DNA of 64,000 nucleotides from Gemmatimonadota bacterium (GTDB taxonomy: Bacteria > Gemmatimonadota > Gemmatimonadetes > Gemmatimonadales > Gemmatimonadaceae), in contig JAPLKS010000017.1 in assembly GCA_026387915.1 (NCBI GenBank), positions 372,001 to 436,000 on the forward strand. Direction: 5' to 3'. Positions 48,953 to 59,079 of this stretch are shown piece after piece. The translations under genes were made by a program, and so were the position numbers. The first letter of the stretch is position 1; the number at the start of each line of letters is the position of its first letter. The notes beneath the pieces were generated by a model. It was given only the letters and a program-made list of their open reading frames with translations, had not been told where the DNA came from and did not search any database.

Positions 48953-50923
48953 ATGAAGTCACGTCATTCGCACGTCGTTCCATCCCGCGGGCCGGTTGCG
49001 CCTTTGCACCGCGGACCGCAGGCGCACGCCCCACAGTCCATGCTGCCGGGTGCCCTCGTTCCGCATCACGCGCCCAACGCCGCGCTCCTCATCGATTTCG
49101 ACAACGTCACGATGGGGATCCGCTCCGATCTACAAACGGAGCTGCGCAACCTGCTGTCGTCCGACATCATCCACGGAAAGGTCGCCGTCCAGCGCGCCTA
49201 CGCGGATTGGCGCCGCTACCCGCAGTACATCGTCCCGCTCAGCGAAGCGTCGATCGACCTCATCTTCGCCCCGGCCTACGGGTCGTCCAAGAAGAACGCG
49301 ACCGACATCCGCCTCGCCATCGACGCCATGGAGCTCGTCTTCACGCGTCCCGAAATCGGCACGATCATCCTGCTCTCCGGTGACTCCGACTTCTCGAGCC
49401 TCGTTATCAAGCTCAAGGAGTACGGCAAGTACGTCATCGGCGTCGGCATCCGTGAATCGTCCAGCGACCTGCTCGTGCAGAACTGCGACGAGTACTACAG
49501 CTACAACGCGCTCGCCGGCCTCGTAAAGGCCAACGAAGAAGGCGGAGCCGACACCAAGTACGACCCGTGGGAACTCGTCACGGAAGCCATTACGCGTATG
49601 GTGCGCAACGGCGACGTCATGCGCTCCGATCGCCTCAAGCAGGTCATGCAGGAGATCGACAGCTCCTTCGACGAAAAGGACTTGGGCATTTCGAAATTCT
49701 CCAAGTTCTGCGCCGAAGCGGCACAGAAGGGACTGATTCTCGTCACCAAGCTCGAAAACGGGCAGCTCGAAGTGGCCCCCACGAAGGGCGCCGTCAAGAG
49801 CGGCGAGCCGGCGGCAACGCCGGCCCCGCGCCCAGCTGGCGCTGAAGTTGAAGAACGCGAAGGGCGTCGTCGCGGACGTCGCGGTGGTCGCGGTCGCGGT
49901 CGTCGCGAGCGTGAAGAGGCCACCGGAACCGCAGAGCAGGGTGCTGAAGTCGCTCCGGCTTCGGTGGAAGTGCCGGTCGCCGCGCCCGTCGCTGCCGTCG
50001 CTGCCGTCGCTGACGTCGCTCAGGCTGCCCTGGCATCGGCCCGCCCCGCTGGTCGTGGCAGCCGCAAGGCAGGCGCGGTCGCTGTCTCAACTCCCACGCA
50101 GCCGATCACCGCACCGGTCGTTGTCGTGGCTGTTGCCGTCCCGGCCGTTCCGGCCGTTCCTGTTGCGCCGGTTGCCGTTGACTCGCGCCGTCATCGCGAA
50201 CCGCGAAGCGAGCGTCGCGAGCCGGTCGTGGTCAACGCCAACATCGGCCGCGCCGGCATTCGCCTCACGCGCGACGAAGCCTTTGCGCTCGTGCGCAACG
50301 CCGTCACGGCGCTCGTCACCGGCGAAGACGCGGTCGGCGCTGAACAGGTACGCCAAAAGGCGTTCGATCTCCTCGGCCGCGACAGCGAGAGCCTCAACGA
50401 ACGCAACTTCCCGCGCATCCTCCGCGATGCGCACGACGGGGATGTTGTCGATCTTCGCAAGCGCGGTGATTCGTACGAAGTCGCGCGGTCCGCGACGGCC
50501 GCCAGCGTTTCCTCGCAGATCGAAGTGAAGGAAGCCGAGCTCAAGGCCGCCGACGATAAGGTCAAGGCCGCTGCCAATCCCCCCGCGCCCCGTGGCATGG
50601 TCGCACGTGGCGTTCCGAATCGCGGTGGACGCGGTGGAAAGGCTATGGCGCCGCCGCCGAACTTCCTGCTGATCGGTGTCGTCGAGTCGGCGTCGCCCAA
50701 GCCGGCCGCCGTCGTGACGCCGGTTGCCCCGGTTGCTCCGGTTTCCAGTGCCGCACCGGCCGCGGCTGAAGCACCCGCCAAAAAGACGCGCGCCAAGGCC
50801 GCACCCAAGGCCGCACCCAAGGCCGACGCACCTGCCAAGGCAAAGGCGCCGGCTAAGGCTGCCAAGGCCGACGCACCCGCCAAGCGCCCGGCGTCGAAGA
50901 AGAAGGGTGCCGCGACCGCCTAA
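48953..50923 (+). CDS. NYN-domain (LabA/DUF88-like) protein with two LOTUS-like domains and basic tails
   Basis: A 656-residue protein. The NYN PIN-like nuclease domain is at about 43-185, with acidic sites in LLIDFDNVTMG, KNATDIRLAIDAM and LLSGDSDFSSLV. A LOTUS/OST-HTH-like winged helix follows at about 205-275. Next come an RGG-like stretch of Arg and Gly (about 300-320), a low-complexity Ala/Val/Pro linker, a second LOTUS-like segment (436-508) and a final 50-residue Lys/Ala/Pro tail like histone H1. The family is thought to bind or cut RNA. The arrangement suggests a nucleic-acid-associated regulator. The start ATG 48953 has only a weak AGAGAG upstream. It is monocistronic and ends before a 46-bp palindrome. 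Confidence 0.85.
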   Translation: MKSRHSHVVPSRGPVAPLHRGPQAHAPQSMLPGALVPHHAPNAALLIDFDNVTMGIRSDLQTELRNLLSSDIIHGKVAVQRAYADWRRYPQYIVPLSEASIDLIFAPAYGSSKKNATDIRLAIDAMELVFTRPEIGTIILLSGDSDFSSLVIKLKEYGKYVIGVGIRESSSDLLVQNCDEYYSYNALAGLVKANEEGGADTKYDPWELVTEAITRMVRNGDVMRSDRLKQVMQEIDSSFDEKDLGISKFSKFCAEAAQKGLILVTKLENGQLEVAPTKGAVKSGEPAATPAPRPAGAEVEEREGRRRGRRGGRGRGRREREEATGTAEQGAEVAPASVEVPVAAPVAAVAAVADVAQAALASARPAGRGSRKAGAVAVSTPTQPITAPVVVVAVAVPAVPAVPVAPVAVDSRRHREPRSERREPVVVNANIGRAGIRLTRDEAFALVRNAVTALVTGEDAVGAEQVRQKAFDLLGRDSESLNERNFPRILRDAHDGDVVDLRKRGDSYEVARSATAASVSSQIEVKEAELKAADDKVKAAANPPAPRGMVARGVPNRGGRGGKAMAPPPNFLLIGVVESASPKPAAVVTPVAPVAPVSSAAPAAAEAPAKKTRAKAAPKAAPKADAPAKAKAPAKAAKADAPAKRPASKKKGAATA

Positions 50924-54454: not shown

Positions 54455-56092
54455 ATGACCGATAGGCGCGAGTTCTTGAAGCATGCCGGTAGCGCCGGCG
54501 CCGCCATGGCCCTGCTGTCCACCTTCCCGCGTGGACTCCATGCCGCCCCGGCCGCCACACCCCAGAATCTCGATCGGTTCCTGAGTGGTATGAACGGTGG
54601 GAATAAGGAACTGATGATGGACGCGCTCAACGCCGCCAAGCTCGCTGGCGCGTCGTGGGCCGATGTGCGCATCGCGCGCTTTCGTCAGAACTTCGTCGTC
54701 ACCCGCGAACAGCAGATCATCAACGTGGTCGACACCGACACCATCGGCTGCGGTGTGCGCGTGCTCGTCGACGGCTGCTGGGGCTTTGCCGCCACCCGCA
54801 ATCTCACGCGCGACGCGGTCACCGCCGCCGCTCGCGAAGCCGCAGCCATCGCCAAAGCCAATCGTGTCGCGCGCGACCGCGCCGTGGAACTCGCCCCGGC
54901 ACCTGCCTTTCCAAACGCCAAGTGGCAGGGCGCGTACTCCGTCGACCCCTTTGACGTGACCGTCGAAGAAAAAGTGGACCTCCTGCTCAAGACCAACGCC
55001 GAGGCCCTAAAGGCCGGCAAGGTGAAGTTCGTGAGCTCGGTGCTCTTTTTTGTGAAGCAAGACCGACAGTACGCCAACACCGACGGCTCCGTCATTGAGC
55101 AGAACTTCGTGCGAAGCTGGCCCCAAGTCGCCGTCACCGCTGTCGCGGATGATCGCAGCGACTTCCAAACCCGTCAGTCTGCAGAAGTCGCGCCGATGGG
55201 GCGGGGGTGGGAGTATGTGAAGGGCAGCGATCTTATGGGACGCGCCCGCCAATGGGGCGAAGAAGCCGCGCAGAAACTCACCGCCAAGTCGGTGGATGTC
55301 GGTCGGTATGATTTGGTGCTCCACCCCTCCAACATCTGGCTCACCATCCACGAATCCATCGGCCACCCGCTCGAACTCGATCGTGCGCTAGGCTACGAAG
55401 CCAACTACGCCGGCACCAGCTTCGTCGCACCCCCCGAAGACAAGCTCGGCAAACTGCGCTACGGTCCCGCCATCATGAACATCCAGGGCGACCGCTCGCA
55501 GGAAGGCGCGCTCTCCACCATCGGCTACGACGACGACGGCGTGCAGCCTGACGACTTCCTCATCATCAAGGAAGGGATGGTCAACGACTACCAGACCACG
55601 CGCGAACAAGCCCCGTGGCTCAAATGGTGGTATGACAAGCAAGGCCGGCCCACCCGCTCACACGGGTGCGCCTATGCCGACAGTTGGTCCAGCGTGGCCT
55701 TCCAGCGAATGCCCAACGTCTCCCTCTTGCCCGGCAAGGAAGACAAGACGTGGGAAGATCTCATTGCCGCCACCGACAAGGGCATCGCGATCATCGGCGA
55801 CGGTTCGTTCTCCATTGATCAGCAACGCTACAACGCACAGTTCGGTGGCCAGCTGTTCTATGAGATTAAGGGCGGCAAGCTCGCCGGCATGCTCAAAGAC
55901 GTGGCCTACCAGATTCGCACGCCGGACTTCTGGAACTCCCTCGACATGCTCGGCGGCAAATCCAGTTATCAGCTTGGCGGATCCTTCTTCGACGGCAAAG
56001 GACAGCCCGGTCAGTCCAACGCTGTCAGCCACGGCGCCGTGCCTGCCCGCTTCCGCAACGTCAACATCATCAACACGGGGAGGAAGAACTAA
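54455..56092 (+). CDS. tldD: TldD-type metallopeptidase with a Tat signal
   Basis: A 545-residue protein. The amino end DRREFLKHAG followed by a hydrophobic stretch and GLHAAPAA is a twin-arginine signal, unlike the cytosolic TldD of enteric bacteria. The zinc site is H299-E300-SIG-H304 (HExxxH). TldD and TldE form a heterodimeric protease that trims unfolded peptides and antitoxins and matures some RiPPs (family knowledge). Its stop shares a base with the tldE start (TAATG), so the two are co-translated. Export of the complex is inferred from the leader. Confidence 0.92.
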   Translation: MTDRREFLKHAGSAGAAMALLSTFPRGLHAAPAATPQNLDRFLSGMNGGNKELMMDALNAAKLAGASWADVRIARFRQNFVVTREQQIINVVDTDTIGCGVRVLVDGCWGFAATRNLTRDAVTAAAREAAAIAKANRVARDRAVELAPAPAFPNAKWQGAYSVDPFDVTVEEKVDLLLKTNAEALKAGKVKFVSSVLFFVKQDRQYANTDGSVIEQNFVRSWPQVAVTAVADDRSDFQTRQSAEVAPMGRGWEYVKGSDLMGRARQWGEEAAQKLTAKSVDVGRYDLVLHPSNIWLTIHESIGHPLELDRALGYEANYAGTSFVAPPEDKLGKLRYGPAIMNIQGDRSQEGALSTIGYDDDGVQPDDFLIIKEGMVNDYQTTREQAPWLKWWYDKQGRPTRSHGCAYADSWSSVAFQRMPNVSLLPGKEDKTWEDLIAATDKGIAIIGDGSFSIDQQRYNAQFGGQLFYEIKGGKLAGMLKDVAYQIRTPDFWNSLDMLGGKSSYQLGGSFFDGKGQPGQSNAVSHGAVPARFRNVNIINTGRKN

Positions 56093-57483
56093 TGTCCGCC
56101 CCCAAACGCCTCCTCGACGCCGTCACCCGCCTTTCCGCCGAACCCGAAGGGGTGCTCAGCCGCGAGGCTGTGCAGGCGCTGTGCGAGAAGACCGTCAAAA
56201 TGTCCAAGGCCGATGCCGTCAACGTGAGCATCAATGGCGGCATCACGCAGAACATCCGCTTTGCCGCCAATCAGCTCTCCACCGCTGGTTCGATCGTCGA
56301 TGCCACGGTAGTGGTGCAGTCATCATTTGGCGCCAAGCACGCCGTCGTCACCACCAACGATCTCTCGGACGAATCGCTCCTTCGCACCGTCCGGGCATCG
56401 GAACGCCTCGCCAAGCTCGCTCCGGACGATCCCGAAGCCATGCCCGAGCTCTCGGCGCAGCAGTACGACGCCGTCAACGCGTGGTTTGATGTCACCGCCA
56501 ACAACTCGGCGGCGGACCGCGCCGGTGTGGCGCGTACCGCGCTCGACCCCGCACGGCAGGCCGGCGATGTCACCACTGCGGGCTTCCTCATTGCTGGCGC
56601 CGGCTACAACGCCATCGCCAACCAGAAGGGATTGTTCGCGTATTTCCGTTCCACGAGCGCGAATTATCAGCTCACCGTGCGCACCAACGATGGAACGGGA
56701 TCGGGATGGGCCGCGGCCGATCATCCCGATTGGGCGCAGATTGATTACGCCGCCGTGGCACGTCGCGCGCTCGAAAAAGCGCGTGCATCACGTGCGCCGG
56801 CCAAAATCGAACCCGGCCGATATGTGGTCATTCTTGAGCCGCAAGCGACGGGAGACCTCGTTCAGCTCATTTTAAATTATGCCGATGCCCGCAGTTCCGA
56901 CGAGGGTCGATCGCCCTTCGTGAAGGCCGATGGCGGTAACAAAATAGGGGAGAAGATCGTCGATTCTCGGGTCACTTTATTTTCTGATCCCGCCGATCCA
57001 CAGTTGCGCTCGCAACCGTTCGATGGGGAAGGTTTCCCTCTGAAAAAACAACTTTGGATAGAAAACGGCGTGTTGAAGCAGTTGTACTATTCACGCTTCT
57101 GGGCACAGAAACAAAAGAAGATCGCGACCGGTGCACCAAGCTCGTTTAATATGTCCGGAGGCTCCAAAAGTGTCGAAGAATTGGTCCAGGGCACGGAACG
57201 CGGAATTCTCGTAACTAGGCTCTGGTACTTGCGCGAAGTCGATCCTCGTACAATTCTGTACACAGGATTGACGCGCGATGGCACGTTCTTAATTGAAAAT
57301 GGAAAGATTGCGAAGAGCGTTTCGAACCTTCGGTTCAACGAATCACCGCTCTTCATGTTGAATAATCTTGAGGCGCTCGGACGGACTGAGCGACTCGCCG
57401 GGACTGAGCAAGGCGGAGCAGTGGCAATGCCGTCGATCAAAGTCCGGGACTTCAACTTCACGAGCCTCTCTGAGGCCGTGTAA
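56092..57483 (+). CDS. TldE/PmbA-type partner subunit
   Basis: A 463-residue TldD/PmbA-family protein without the HExxxH motif and without any signal peptide, as expected for the non-catalytic partner. Family landmarks include SINGGITQNIRFAANQLS, GFLIAGAGYNAIANQKGL, SGWAAADHPDW and the carboxy GTFLIENGKIAKSVSNLRFNESP. From about base 56870 (residue 260) to the end the DNA becomes clearly richer in A and T, with codons such as TTA, ATA and AAT, unlike the first half and the neighbours. The protein frame stays intact. This looks like an intragenic recombination junction. Confidence 0.9.
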   Translation: MSAPKRLLDAVTRLSAEPEGVLSREAVQALCEKTVKMSKADAVNVSINGGITQNIRFAANQLSTAGSIVDATVVVQSSFGAKHAVVTTNDLSDESLLRTVRASERLAKLAPDDPEAMPELSAQQYDAVNAWFDVTANNSAADRAGVARTALDPARQAGDVTTAGFLIAGAGYNAIANQKGLFAYFRSTSANYQLTVRTNDGTGSGWAAADHPDWAQIDYAAVARRALEKARASRAPAKIEPGRYVVILEPQATGDLVQLILNYADARSSDEGRSPFVKADGGNKIGEKIVDSRVTLFSDPADPQLRSQPFDGEGFPLKKQLWIENGVLKQLYYSRFWAQKQKKIATGAPSSFNMSGGSKSVEELVQGTERGILVTRLWYLREVDPRTILYTGLTRDGTFLIENGKIAKSVSNLRFNESPLFMLNNLEALGRTERLAGTEQGGAVAMPSIKVRDFNFTSLSEAV

Positions 57484-57491
57484 GAACGGGG

Positions 57492-57536
57492 CCGCGGAAA
57501 CGCGGTTTCGGACCCAGCGATCCACCGGGGGATCGC
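57492..57536 (+). promoter_or_regulatory. Two leader hairpins before the 20-residue gene
   Basis: The first is CCGCG-GAAA-CGCGG (57492-57505), a GNRA tetraloop hairpin. The second is GCGATCC-ACCGGG-GGATCGC (57517-57536). They begin nine bases after the tldE stop and precede the AGGAG of the small gene. They could be an mRNA-stabilising leader or a regulatory structure. Confidence 0.5.
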
Positions 57537-57569
57537 CAGGGATTTCACTCCTTCACAGGAGCTAGTACC

Positions 57570-57632
57570 ATGGCTGCCAAGAAGAAGGCTGCAAAGAAGG
57601 CCACGAAGAAAAAGGCCGCGAAGAAGAAGTAG
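57570..57632 (+). CDS. 20-residue Ala/Lys protein (histone-H1-tail-like)
   Basis: A complete minigene: AGGAG at 57557-57561, eight bases, ATG 57570, 20 codons, TAG, then a strong terminator. The product has eleven Lys, seven Ala, one Thr and the initiator Met, arranged as KKK/AA repeats like the tails of bacterial histone H1 (Hc1/AlgP type) and like the carboxy end of the NYN protein at 48953-50923. It should bind nucleic acid or act as a basic counter-ion; this is inference from composition. Lys codons are AAG/AAA mixed. It could instead be the remnant of a longer AlgP-like gene, but the clean expression signals argue for a working gene. Confidence 0.65.
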   Translation: MAAKKKAAKKATKKKAAKKK

Positions 57633-57641
57633 TTTCTTCGT

Positions 57642-57677
57642 ACAGCGGGGAGCCGGCGCAAGCCGGCTCCCCGCTGT
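57642..57677 (+). terminator. Rho-independent terminator of the 20-residue gene
   Basis: A perfect 16-bp stem with a GCAA (GNRA) loop (57642-57657, 57662-57677), followed by CGTTTAA. It lies ten bases after the stop. Confidence 0.85.
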
Positions 57678-57747
57678 CGTTTAAGCGATCCCCAAAATCA
57701 AAAAGCCCCACGAGCGGCGCTGAGCGTATGAACCGGAAGAAAGAAAC

Positions 57748-57770: not shown

Positions 57771-57802
57771 TGTGTACGTTCTGGCGACGAGGGAGTGCGC
57801 GG

Positions 57803-57831
57803 CTAGGCCACGCTAGGCCACTCTAGGCCAC
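57803..57831. repeat. Three 10-bp repeats placing a stop codon in every minus-strand frame
   Basis: CTAGGCCAC occurs at 57803, 57813 and 57823. On the minus strand each unit is GTGGCCTAG. Because the period is 10, the TAG falls in a different frame each time. The first one read is the real stop of the 54-residue gene. Confidence 0.85.
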
Positions 57832-57987
57832 CAGCTTTCCGTTTACTTCCGCCTCTTCTTCCTCGTTCACCGGCACCGGTCCCCACACGTATGCCGAAAA
57901 ACGCGGCGTCTCTTCCGTGCGATTGCCCCCGGAAATAATGATTCCCATGGGCTCTTCATCCGCCTTGGCTCGACGCAGACTATCCAT
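57823..57987 (-). CDS. 54-residue protein of unknown function
   Basis: A small gene on the minus strand: GAGGG at 57997-57993, five bases, ATG 57987, and stop at 57825-57823. The product has a basic helical start (MDSLRRAKADEEPMG), a central IIISGGNRTEETPRF and YVWGPVP segment, and an acidic EEEEAE end. Codon choice is coding-like and it has its own terminator. I do not recognise it. The same helix continues upstream in another frame (MDEALSSLL, start 58055): removing one T from the CTTCTTTATTG stretch would join them into a 76-residue protein. So either a frameshifted longer ancestor, a sequence error or chance. Confidence 0.55.
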   Translation of the reverse strand: MDSLRRAKADEEPMGIIISGGNRTEETPRFSAYVWGPVPVNEEEEAEVNGKLVA

Positions 57988-58193: not shown

Positions 58194-58970
58194 TTACGCC
58201 ATGGTTTTTCTTGCCACCAGCGTCTTCGACGCGCCGGGCTCAGGGACAAAGGACAAATCCCAGCCCACGTACTGCGCTCGGAGCTCCTCTTCGGTGATCG
58301 CTTCCTGCCCGGCGATGATCGTCTCGACGAGGTGCACGCCGCCGTCGGCCGTGGCGAGTTGGAGCGCGGCAATCAGCTTTGAGCGCTCCCGATCCGAAAG
58401 TCCGGCAAAGGCCGCCGGCGTAAACACCACCGCTGCCATCGGTCCCTCGGGAAGCCAGCGACTGAAATCCGTGGTCAGGCCAGTCACGCGCGACTGCAGC
58501 CCCGCTTCCTGCGCTGCGAGCAGCACACGTTCGACCACGTCGTGCTCAGGTTCGATGGCCGTCACCTGACAGCCATTGGCCGCGAGGTACAGCGCCGAAC
58601 CCTGCACGCGCGCGCCGGAGACCACGACGTGTGCACTGAGCGACGCGGTGCCGAGTGCATGGGCGAGTGGCGTGTCGGACCGGAGTCCCCAGTATTCCGG
58701 GTTCTTCGGCTCCGATGCGTTTTTGAGCAGACGGCGGCGCCACGTTGCAAACGACGGAATCTTGAGGCGGCGCAAAATCAGGCGGTCGACCTCTGCCGCG
58801 AGAAGCACATCGCGCATCCCCAGCTGTAGCTCCGTCTCGAAGACCGCCTGGGCGGCGTCGGCAATGCCGCACAAATGCTCGCGCGACACGGACTCCTTGT
58901 ACGCCTCAACCTCGCGGTCGACGTACAACTCATATTCGTGACGGAGTGAGCGTGGCGAGCGTGGCTGCAT
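58194..58970 (-). CDS. Class I methyltransferase-like protein
   Basis: A 258-residue soluble protein from ATG 58970; GTG 58985 in frame is the alternative, and neither has a good ribosome site. The amino third is helical and charged. A Rossmann-like core follows, with HVVVSGARVQGSALYLAANGCQVTAIEPE (motif I to acidic motif II), a VTGLTTDFSRWLP segment and VVFTPAAFAGLSDRERSKLI. The glycine loop is degenerate (SGARVQGS), so AdoMet binding is uncertain. Substrate unknown. It is a monocistronic gene ending in a strong terminator. Confidence 0.68.
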   Translation of the reverse strand: MQPRSPRSLRHEYELYVDREVEAYKESVSREHLCGIADAAQAVFETELQLGMRDVLLAAEVDRLILRRLKIPSFATWRRRLLKNASEPKNPEYWGLRSDTPLAHALGTASLSAHVVVSGARVQGSALYLAANGCQVTAIEPEHDVVERVLLAAQEAGLQSRVTGLTTDFSRWLPEGPMAAVVFTPAAFAGLSDRERSKLIAALQLATADGGVHLVETIIAGQEAITEEELRAQYVGWDLSFVPEPGASKTLVARKTMA

Positions 58971-59079
58971 CGGGTGGCCGATCACGAGTGGGCGTGCTTG
59001 ATCAAATCCAAGCTACACAAGATTTCTCTGCACTCAAAGAGAAAAGTTGTCCACACAACGACGGGATGGTCTCTGATGT

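Follow-up and report, generated by a model that had tools for sequence, protein, structure and literature searches.

The locus at 57484-57690 of the window (the whole 64-kb stretch of DNA analysed here) probably encodes a minimal histone-H1-like polycation on a monocistronic message, headed by a leader that controls its translation or stability. Judged by comparison of sequences among relatives, the locus is real, conserved and coding, and its micro-ORF is under purifying selection. The initial annotation had seen here a basic micro-protein equipped with translation signals of its own, a reading borne out by a frame that is open in all relatives and varies at third codon positions. Beyond that reading, we found a nearly invariant hexaloop in the leader, a family-wide distribution and a continuum of product lengths.

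Architecture of the micro-gene

The elements of the locus follow one another in the order P1, P2, SD hairpin, ATG, 20 codons with TAG, and 3' stem. They are given here together with the protein genes of the window considered below.

48953 to 50923, + strand: NYN protein with an Ala/Pro/Lys-rich tail (by composition)
54455 to 56092, + strand: TldD-like metallopeptidase with a twin-arginine signal
56092 to 57483, + strand: PmbA/TldE-like metallopeptidase, a frequent but not constant upstream neighbour
57487 to 57510, + strand: hairpin P1, 10 bp, GAAA loop (predicted fold)
57513 to 57541, + strand: hairpin P2, loop ACCGGG at 57524-57529 (fold and covariation)
57548 to 57561, + strand: small hairpin in which CUCCU (57548-57552) pairs with the SD AGGAG (predicted fold)
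57557 to 57561, + strand: Shine-Dalgarno (SD) sequence AGGAG, 8 nt 5' of the ATG at 57570
57570 to 57632, + strand: micro-ORF, 20 codons and TAG, product MAAKKKAAKKATKKKAAKKK (frame open in every relative, substitutions favouring third positions)
57642 to 57677, + strand: terminator-like stem, 16 bp, GCAA loop (fold; weak U tract in the window)
58194 to 58985, - strand: convergent neighbour, 263 aa, class-I SAM methyltransferase-like (sequence profile and fold; syntenic with short and long forms)

Both the frame and the RNA stand out from their surroundings. The 20-codon Lys/Ala frame described initially is present, and its Lys share of 55% compares with 12% for the runner-up among the 53 SD-preceded short frames of the window and with a maximum of 30% across 60 Markov-simulated windows. 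The folding energy of the locus is -103.7 kcal/mol, against -71.2 ± 4.5 kcal/mol for dinucleotide shuffles (z -7.3), and no 40-nt hairpin stronger than the 3' stem was detected across the 64 kb.

This stem had been called a 16-bp terminator with a GNRA loop. The stem and its GCAA loop are there, but the U tract that follows is poor in the window (GUCGUUUAAG), and for this reason it was not listed by the terminator scan. Relatives keep the stem, with a median of 14 bp; strong 3' structure is found in 76 of 78, and 50 of 78 have at least five T among the 12 bases at its end. No promoter was recognised in the window; in some relatives (genus g5), a promoter-like pair, TTGCGC-N17-TATATT, lies about 100 nt upstream of P2. 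The window holds no tRNA or known RNA. Between the micro-gene and the convergent gene, at 57800-57835, CTAGGCCAC occurs in three close copies.

The initial annotation also saw in the peptide an echo of the tail of the NYN protein. This likeness proved superficial, being one of composition only between an Ala/Pro/Lys-rich tail and the micro-protein, with no positional connection. Closer kin are found in the H1-like orthologues of 95-129 aa and in the Lys/Ala tails that SWIB proteins carry, both described below.

Coding conservation

A DNA search of 61 genomes for the leader and the ORF recovered both in 15 of the 17 other species of the window's genus, with weaker matches in other genera. In all of the first 20 loci the frame is intact, begins with MAAKKK and encodes 14-29 aa. 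The wider collection comprises 102 distinct ORF sequences of 14-129 aa, every one of them open, and the length changes among them are always multiples of three. The products are without exception Lys/Ala- or Lys/Arg/Gly-rich, varying in length in frame over this whole range.

The pattern of substitutions is that of a coding sequence. In the 10 groups whose ORFs encode one and the same protein, 45 sites vary, every one of them a third codon position. When nearest neighbours of equal length are compared, 70 of 160 changes are synonymous, where 21-26% would be expected (binomial p 1.6e-4 against 30%). Lys is encoded by AAG in 2127 of its 2223 codons in the collection.

These data bear on the reading in which the RNA itself is the product, a regulatory sRNA, perhaps of dual function, whose P1, P2 and terminator matter while the frame is incidental or secondary. 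Stable structure does dominate the 200-nt unit, P2 is conserved above the remainder, and a frame of 14 codons is very short. A frame broken in relatives, as the initial annotation anticipated for a non-coding RNA, was nevertheless not seen in any of the 102 sequences. The frame is always open, with length steps in multiples of three and third-position variation, and the same leader stands before proteins of 95-129 aa at the same place and before SWIB proteins, thus behaving as a 5' leader. We therefore regard a pure or predominant sRNA as very unlikely, and treat the structured RNA as the leader of a gene for a micro-protein.

The leader RNA

The initial annotation had described a structured leader made of a GNRA hairpin and a second stem, and both P1, with its GAAA loop, and P2 are present by fold. 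The sequence of P1 varies among genera, with a hairpin usually predicted at the same place; over 78 loci the P1 region has a median z of -1.8, with 47 loci below -1.5. The hexaloop of P2 reads ACCGGG in 63 of 65 loci (the exceptions being one ACTGGG and one ACCGGT), lies 41-46 nt upstream of the ATG and is always closed by a C-G pair, while the stem below it varies freely. Among 40 distinct sequences, 93.6% of the pair cells of the stem are standard pairs, and both sides have changed in six of the seven pairs. Cells with a double change number 45, against a mean of 10.1 ± 2.6 in shuffles, none of 500 shuffles reaching as high, and the signal is lost when the partner strand is slid. Since the stem covaries while the loop is fixed, P2 is best explained as an RNA structure with a sequence-specific loop; the arms of a DNA operator would be conserved.

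The third hairpin involves the ribosome-binding site. AGGAG does lie at good spacing, 8 nt before the ATG, as first described, but it is not free, being predicted to pair with CUCCU. Most relatives have this SD hairpin, one clade and a few further loci have lost it, and it shows no covariation of its own. The high expression suggested by the initial annotation is thus at most conjectural, the SD being predicted to be partly sequestered. A switch in which GGGG of the P2 loop pairs with CUCC and frees the SD was considered and is not supported, the loop being unchanged in the clade without CUCC.

Covarying structure, a fixed loop and a constant position before one gene type together mark the element as a candidate cis-regulatory leader. 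Alternatively, the hairpins could serve as mRNA stability or insulation elements only, with neither binding factor nor regulation. Stable 5' hairpins are generally protective for bacterial mRNAs, which lends this reading some weight. Protection, however, would tolerate other loops, yet ACCGGG is kept in 63 of 65 loci despite a freely changing stem, and the same loop recurs on other stems before SWIB genes; we thus hold stability alone to be rather unlikely and favour a leader that is read through its loop.

Two covariance models were used in searches: R1, of P2 and the SD hairpin, and R2, built from 65 loci. Against the 4227 families of Rfam, the leader has no match; the candidates BjrC68, BSnc120, sX7 and Chloroflexi-1 fell below the gathering score and aligned only to the 3' GC-rich stem. 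The motif YCACCGGGGR has 26 copies in the window's genome, but a 7-bp stem accompanies only the leader and a single copy lying inside a coding region (L206), and a search with R2 gives no further leader there below E 0.7. The ACCGGG element is therefore taken to be unique in this genome. As a general pre-gene signal, CACTCC...GGAG was likewise sought and occurs at only three places in the genome.

Most class-level R2 matches in family f5 were set aside as a different element, associated with small-gene arrays, terminator-like hairpins and a similar SD hairpin. Four loci (L177, L178, L179 and L180, in genomes G357, G273 and G311 of another family of the class) are arrays of small genes with a GC-rich hairpin before nearly every gene, followed by TTCACTCC-n-ACAGGAGGCAGGAACC-ATG, which resembles the SD hairpin of the micro-gene leader. 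They may belong to a phage or mobile element that uses a stereotyped start signal.

Distribution, synteny and length classes

R1 has a match in 122 of the 179 family genomes, almost without exception a single copy, and in 32 of 35 genera. R2 matches in 93 of 103 Gemmatimonadaceae genomes drawn from the phylum (about 90%), with only five weak cases outside the family. One match comes from a different family within the order (G040, L020); its loop is ACTGGG, and it too is followed by a Lys/Ala micro-ORF. Furthermore, 84,980 named species were scanned with the pattern CCACCGGGGG, 30-60 nt, then M-A-x-x-K-K. By our count, the 84 stretches returned comprise 75 micro-genes, two SWIB genes and seven chance occurrences. 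The titles of the 75 place them in Gemmatimonadaceae or Gemmatimonadota, except for one unnamed bacterium and one MAG labelled Candidatus Kuenenia stuttgartiensis (L102, CALQGY020000016.1). The latter bears the Gemmatimonas form of the locus, and its contig is probably misbinned, since its neighbour gene falls inside the Gemmatimonas clade.

Products are shortest, at 14-24 aa, in the genus of the window and those close to it; they have 26-65 aa in other genera and 95-129 aa, with AAKK, GAKK and ARKT repeats, in Gemmatimonas and relatives. The short (up to 24 aa) and long (at least 95 aa) forms are orthologues, because the same convergent neighbour accompanies both. On the tree of this neighbour the size classes are clustered, three classes requiring six changes against 32.8 with shuffled labels. 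More specifically, 31 rows of at most 24 aa form one clade and 24 rows of at least 95 aa another, and a further separate clade consists mostly of short forms. This clustering argues that the short state is old and maintained, and does not reflect recent gene decay.

Gene order also bears on whether the micro-ORF could be a translated leader peptide, an attenuator for a downstream gene, which a short Lys-rich frame with a terminator-like stem resembles at first sight. No same-strand gene follows it: the next gene is convergent (58194-58985, - strand) in the window and in nearly all relatives, and the orthologues are full-size proteins. On the evidence of synteny an attenuator is already refuted, barring antisense-type read-through transcripts, and we give it next to no credence.

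The convergent protein, TehB-like in fold apart from an additional helical stretch of about 100 aa at the N-terminus, is a conserved companion of the micro-gene throughout the family. It could conceivably methylate Lys residues of the tail, a speculation prompted by synteny. On the upstream side, TldD/PmbA was considered as a necessary partner and rejected, being absent there in several species of the same genus. At three loci (L119, L124 and L165), two tandem TldD/PmbA-like pairs lie upstream of the micro-gene.

SWIB genes with the same loop

The SWIB domain (PF02201) is absent from the micro-ORF but is found in a separate gene with the same tail. SWIB-domain proteins are encoded in 92 of 99 Gemmatimonadaceae genomes, and also across the window's genus, and a Lys/Ala-rich N-terminal tail is present on those whose sequences were read. 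Such genes are located at L202, L142, L164, L175, L176, L194, L195, L200 and L249. A hairpin with the ACCGGG hexaloop occurs in eight of 41 SWIB leaders, at -38 to -46 from the ATG, compared with 0.065 in shuffles, and in genus g13 the entire SWIB leader scores with R2 (E 5e-8 to 5e-5). The SWIB leader of the window's genome (L202, G000:C22:178583-178804) folds but lacks the ACCGGG loop. The SWIB promoter region in the window's genus looks conserved, as ATTGCGC, about 17 nt and TAnTTTCGA.

The common loop hairpin at the micro-gene and at Lys/Ala-tailed SWIB genes suggests a small shared control circuit.

Proposed function and significance

In the reading we favour, the micro-ORF would be translated into a Lys-rich peptide that neutralises DNA or another polyanion, such as RNA or polyphosphate, in the manner of H1-like tails. 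Its dose would be set post-transcriptionally, by a putative trans-acting factor that reads the ACCGGG hexaloop and alters SD access or the life of the mRNA. This factor could be a Lys-rich tail protein itself, as the tail-bearing SWIB genes share the loop. A peptide of 14-20 residues with 9-11 Lys should bind DNA weakly on its own, and a role in compaction would thus need high abundance.

Gemmatimonas aurantiaca accumulates polyphosphate. The peptide may serve a target other than DNA, namely polyphosphate granules, RNA or the ribosome, which would be compatible with the leader model. Polyphosphate is mentioned in Gemmatimonas papers, and the Lys/Ala/Pro tail of AlgP is needed in the spacing of polyphosphate granules (PMC9239181). 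Against this, the connection with SWIB-domain proteins bearing the same tail points to chromatin-type functions, and we consider a non-DNA target possible but doubtful. Tentative too is the further proposal that the ACCGGG hexaloop defines a new class of cis-regulatory RNA by which Lys-tail chromatin-type proteins (the H1-like micro-protein and SWIB) detect their own abundance and repress their translation in response, a reading we hold to be unlikely as it stands. If true, the short clades would be evidence that a bacterial "linker histone" can shrink to 14-24 residues and still be retained by selection.

As genes of 14-24 codons are usually omitted from annotation, clades with the short form may contain a chromatin-type gene, present in single copy throughout the family, that no record shows. 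Nature has in effect tested the minimal length of a Lys-rich polyanion-binding protein here, with products of 14 to 129 residues encoded at one syntenic position. As for the leader, the support for a structured RNA is strong, no known family includes it, and it is tied to one gene type, so that a direct search for its ligand is feasible; Gemmatimonas, with some species in culture, falls in the long-form clade and has the same leader.

Comparison with known systems

Broadly, the micro-protein is of the kind of the bacterial H1-like proteins, which bind DNA and vary in length through their repeats (PMC2848022), although by sequence profile it fails the curated test and is not filed as HC2. The 113-aa orthologue (L089) scores 34.2 bits (E 3.4e-8) against HC2 (PF07382), where the cut-off is 40, and 34.0 bits (E 3.5e-8) against NF038053, where it is 80; the window peptide has no match to the HC2/H1-like profiles PF07382, NF038052 and NF038053. 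All scores being under the curated cut-offs, membership of the HC2/H1 family is not claimed. Chlamydial Hc2 (HctB), Bordetella BpH1 and the Burkholderia Hc2-like proteins share with the products described here Lys/Ala-rich repeats, in-frame length variation and a basic character throughout. Hc2 has 165-237 aa (PMC2848022) and BpH1 182-206 aa, whereas the short forms here are far smaller at 14-24 aa, and none of the Hc2/BpH1-type proteins has been described with a structured leader.

The Lys/Ala/Pro-rich C-terminal tails of Pseudomonas AlgP and PhaF have an H1-like composition like that of the micro-protein; they are disordered, and peptides from them bind DNA. AlgP, whose tail is the one required for granule spacing (PMC9239181), combines a helical domain at the N-terminus with 154 aa of KPAA repeats, whereas the micro-protein consists of tail-like sequence alone. 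SWIB-domain proteins of the same genomes (PF02201) have the MAAKKKAAKK N-terminus in common with it and, in eight of 41 cases, a hairpin with its hexaloop, placed equally far from the ATG, but they carry a folded SWIB domain and are encoded elsewhere in the genome.

The leader has the layout of protein-bound cis-regulatory leaders such as the autoregulation sites of ribosomal proteins, with a covarying stem, a fixed loop and a partly sequestered SD, and like them it precedes the gene for a basic protein of a nucleic-acid-binding type. It differs from them in matching no Rfam family and in having a binding factor that is, here, putative. The literature on Gemmatimonas histones and on structured RNAs of the phylum, as far as it was covered, contains no description of the micro-gene or leader, though one may exist elsewhere, and the main text of a G. 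phototrophica transcriptome paper does not mention histones. What is new compared with these systems is how extremely short stable orthologues can be, the synteny across the family that links forms of 14 aa and 129 aa, and the leader element.
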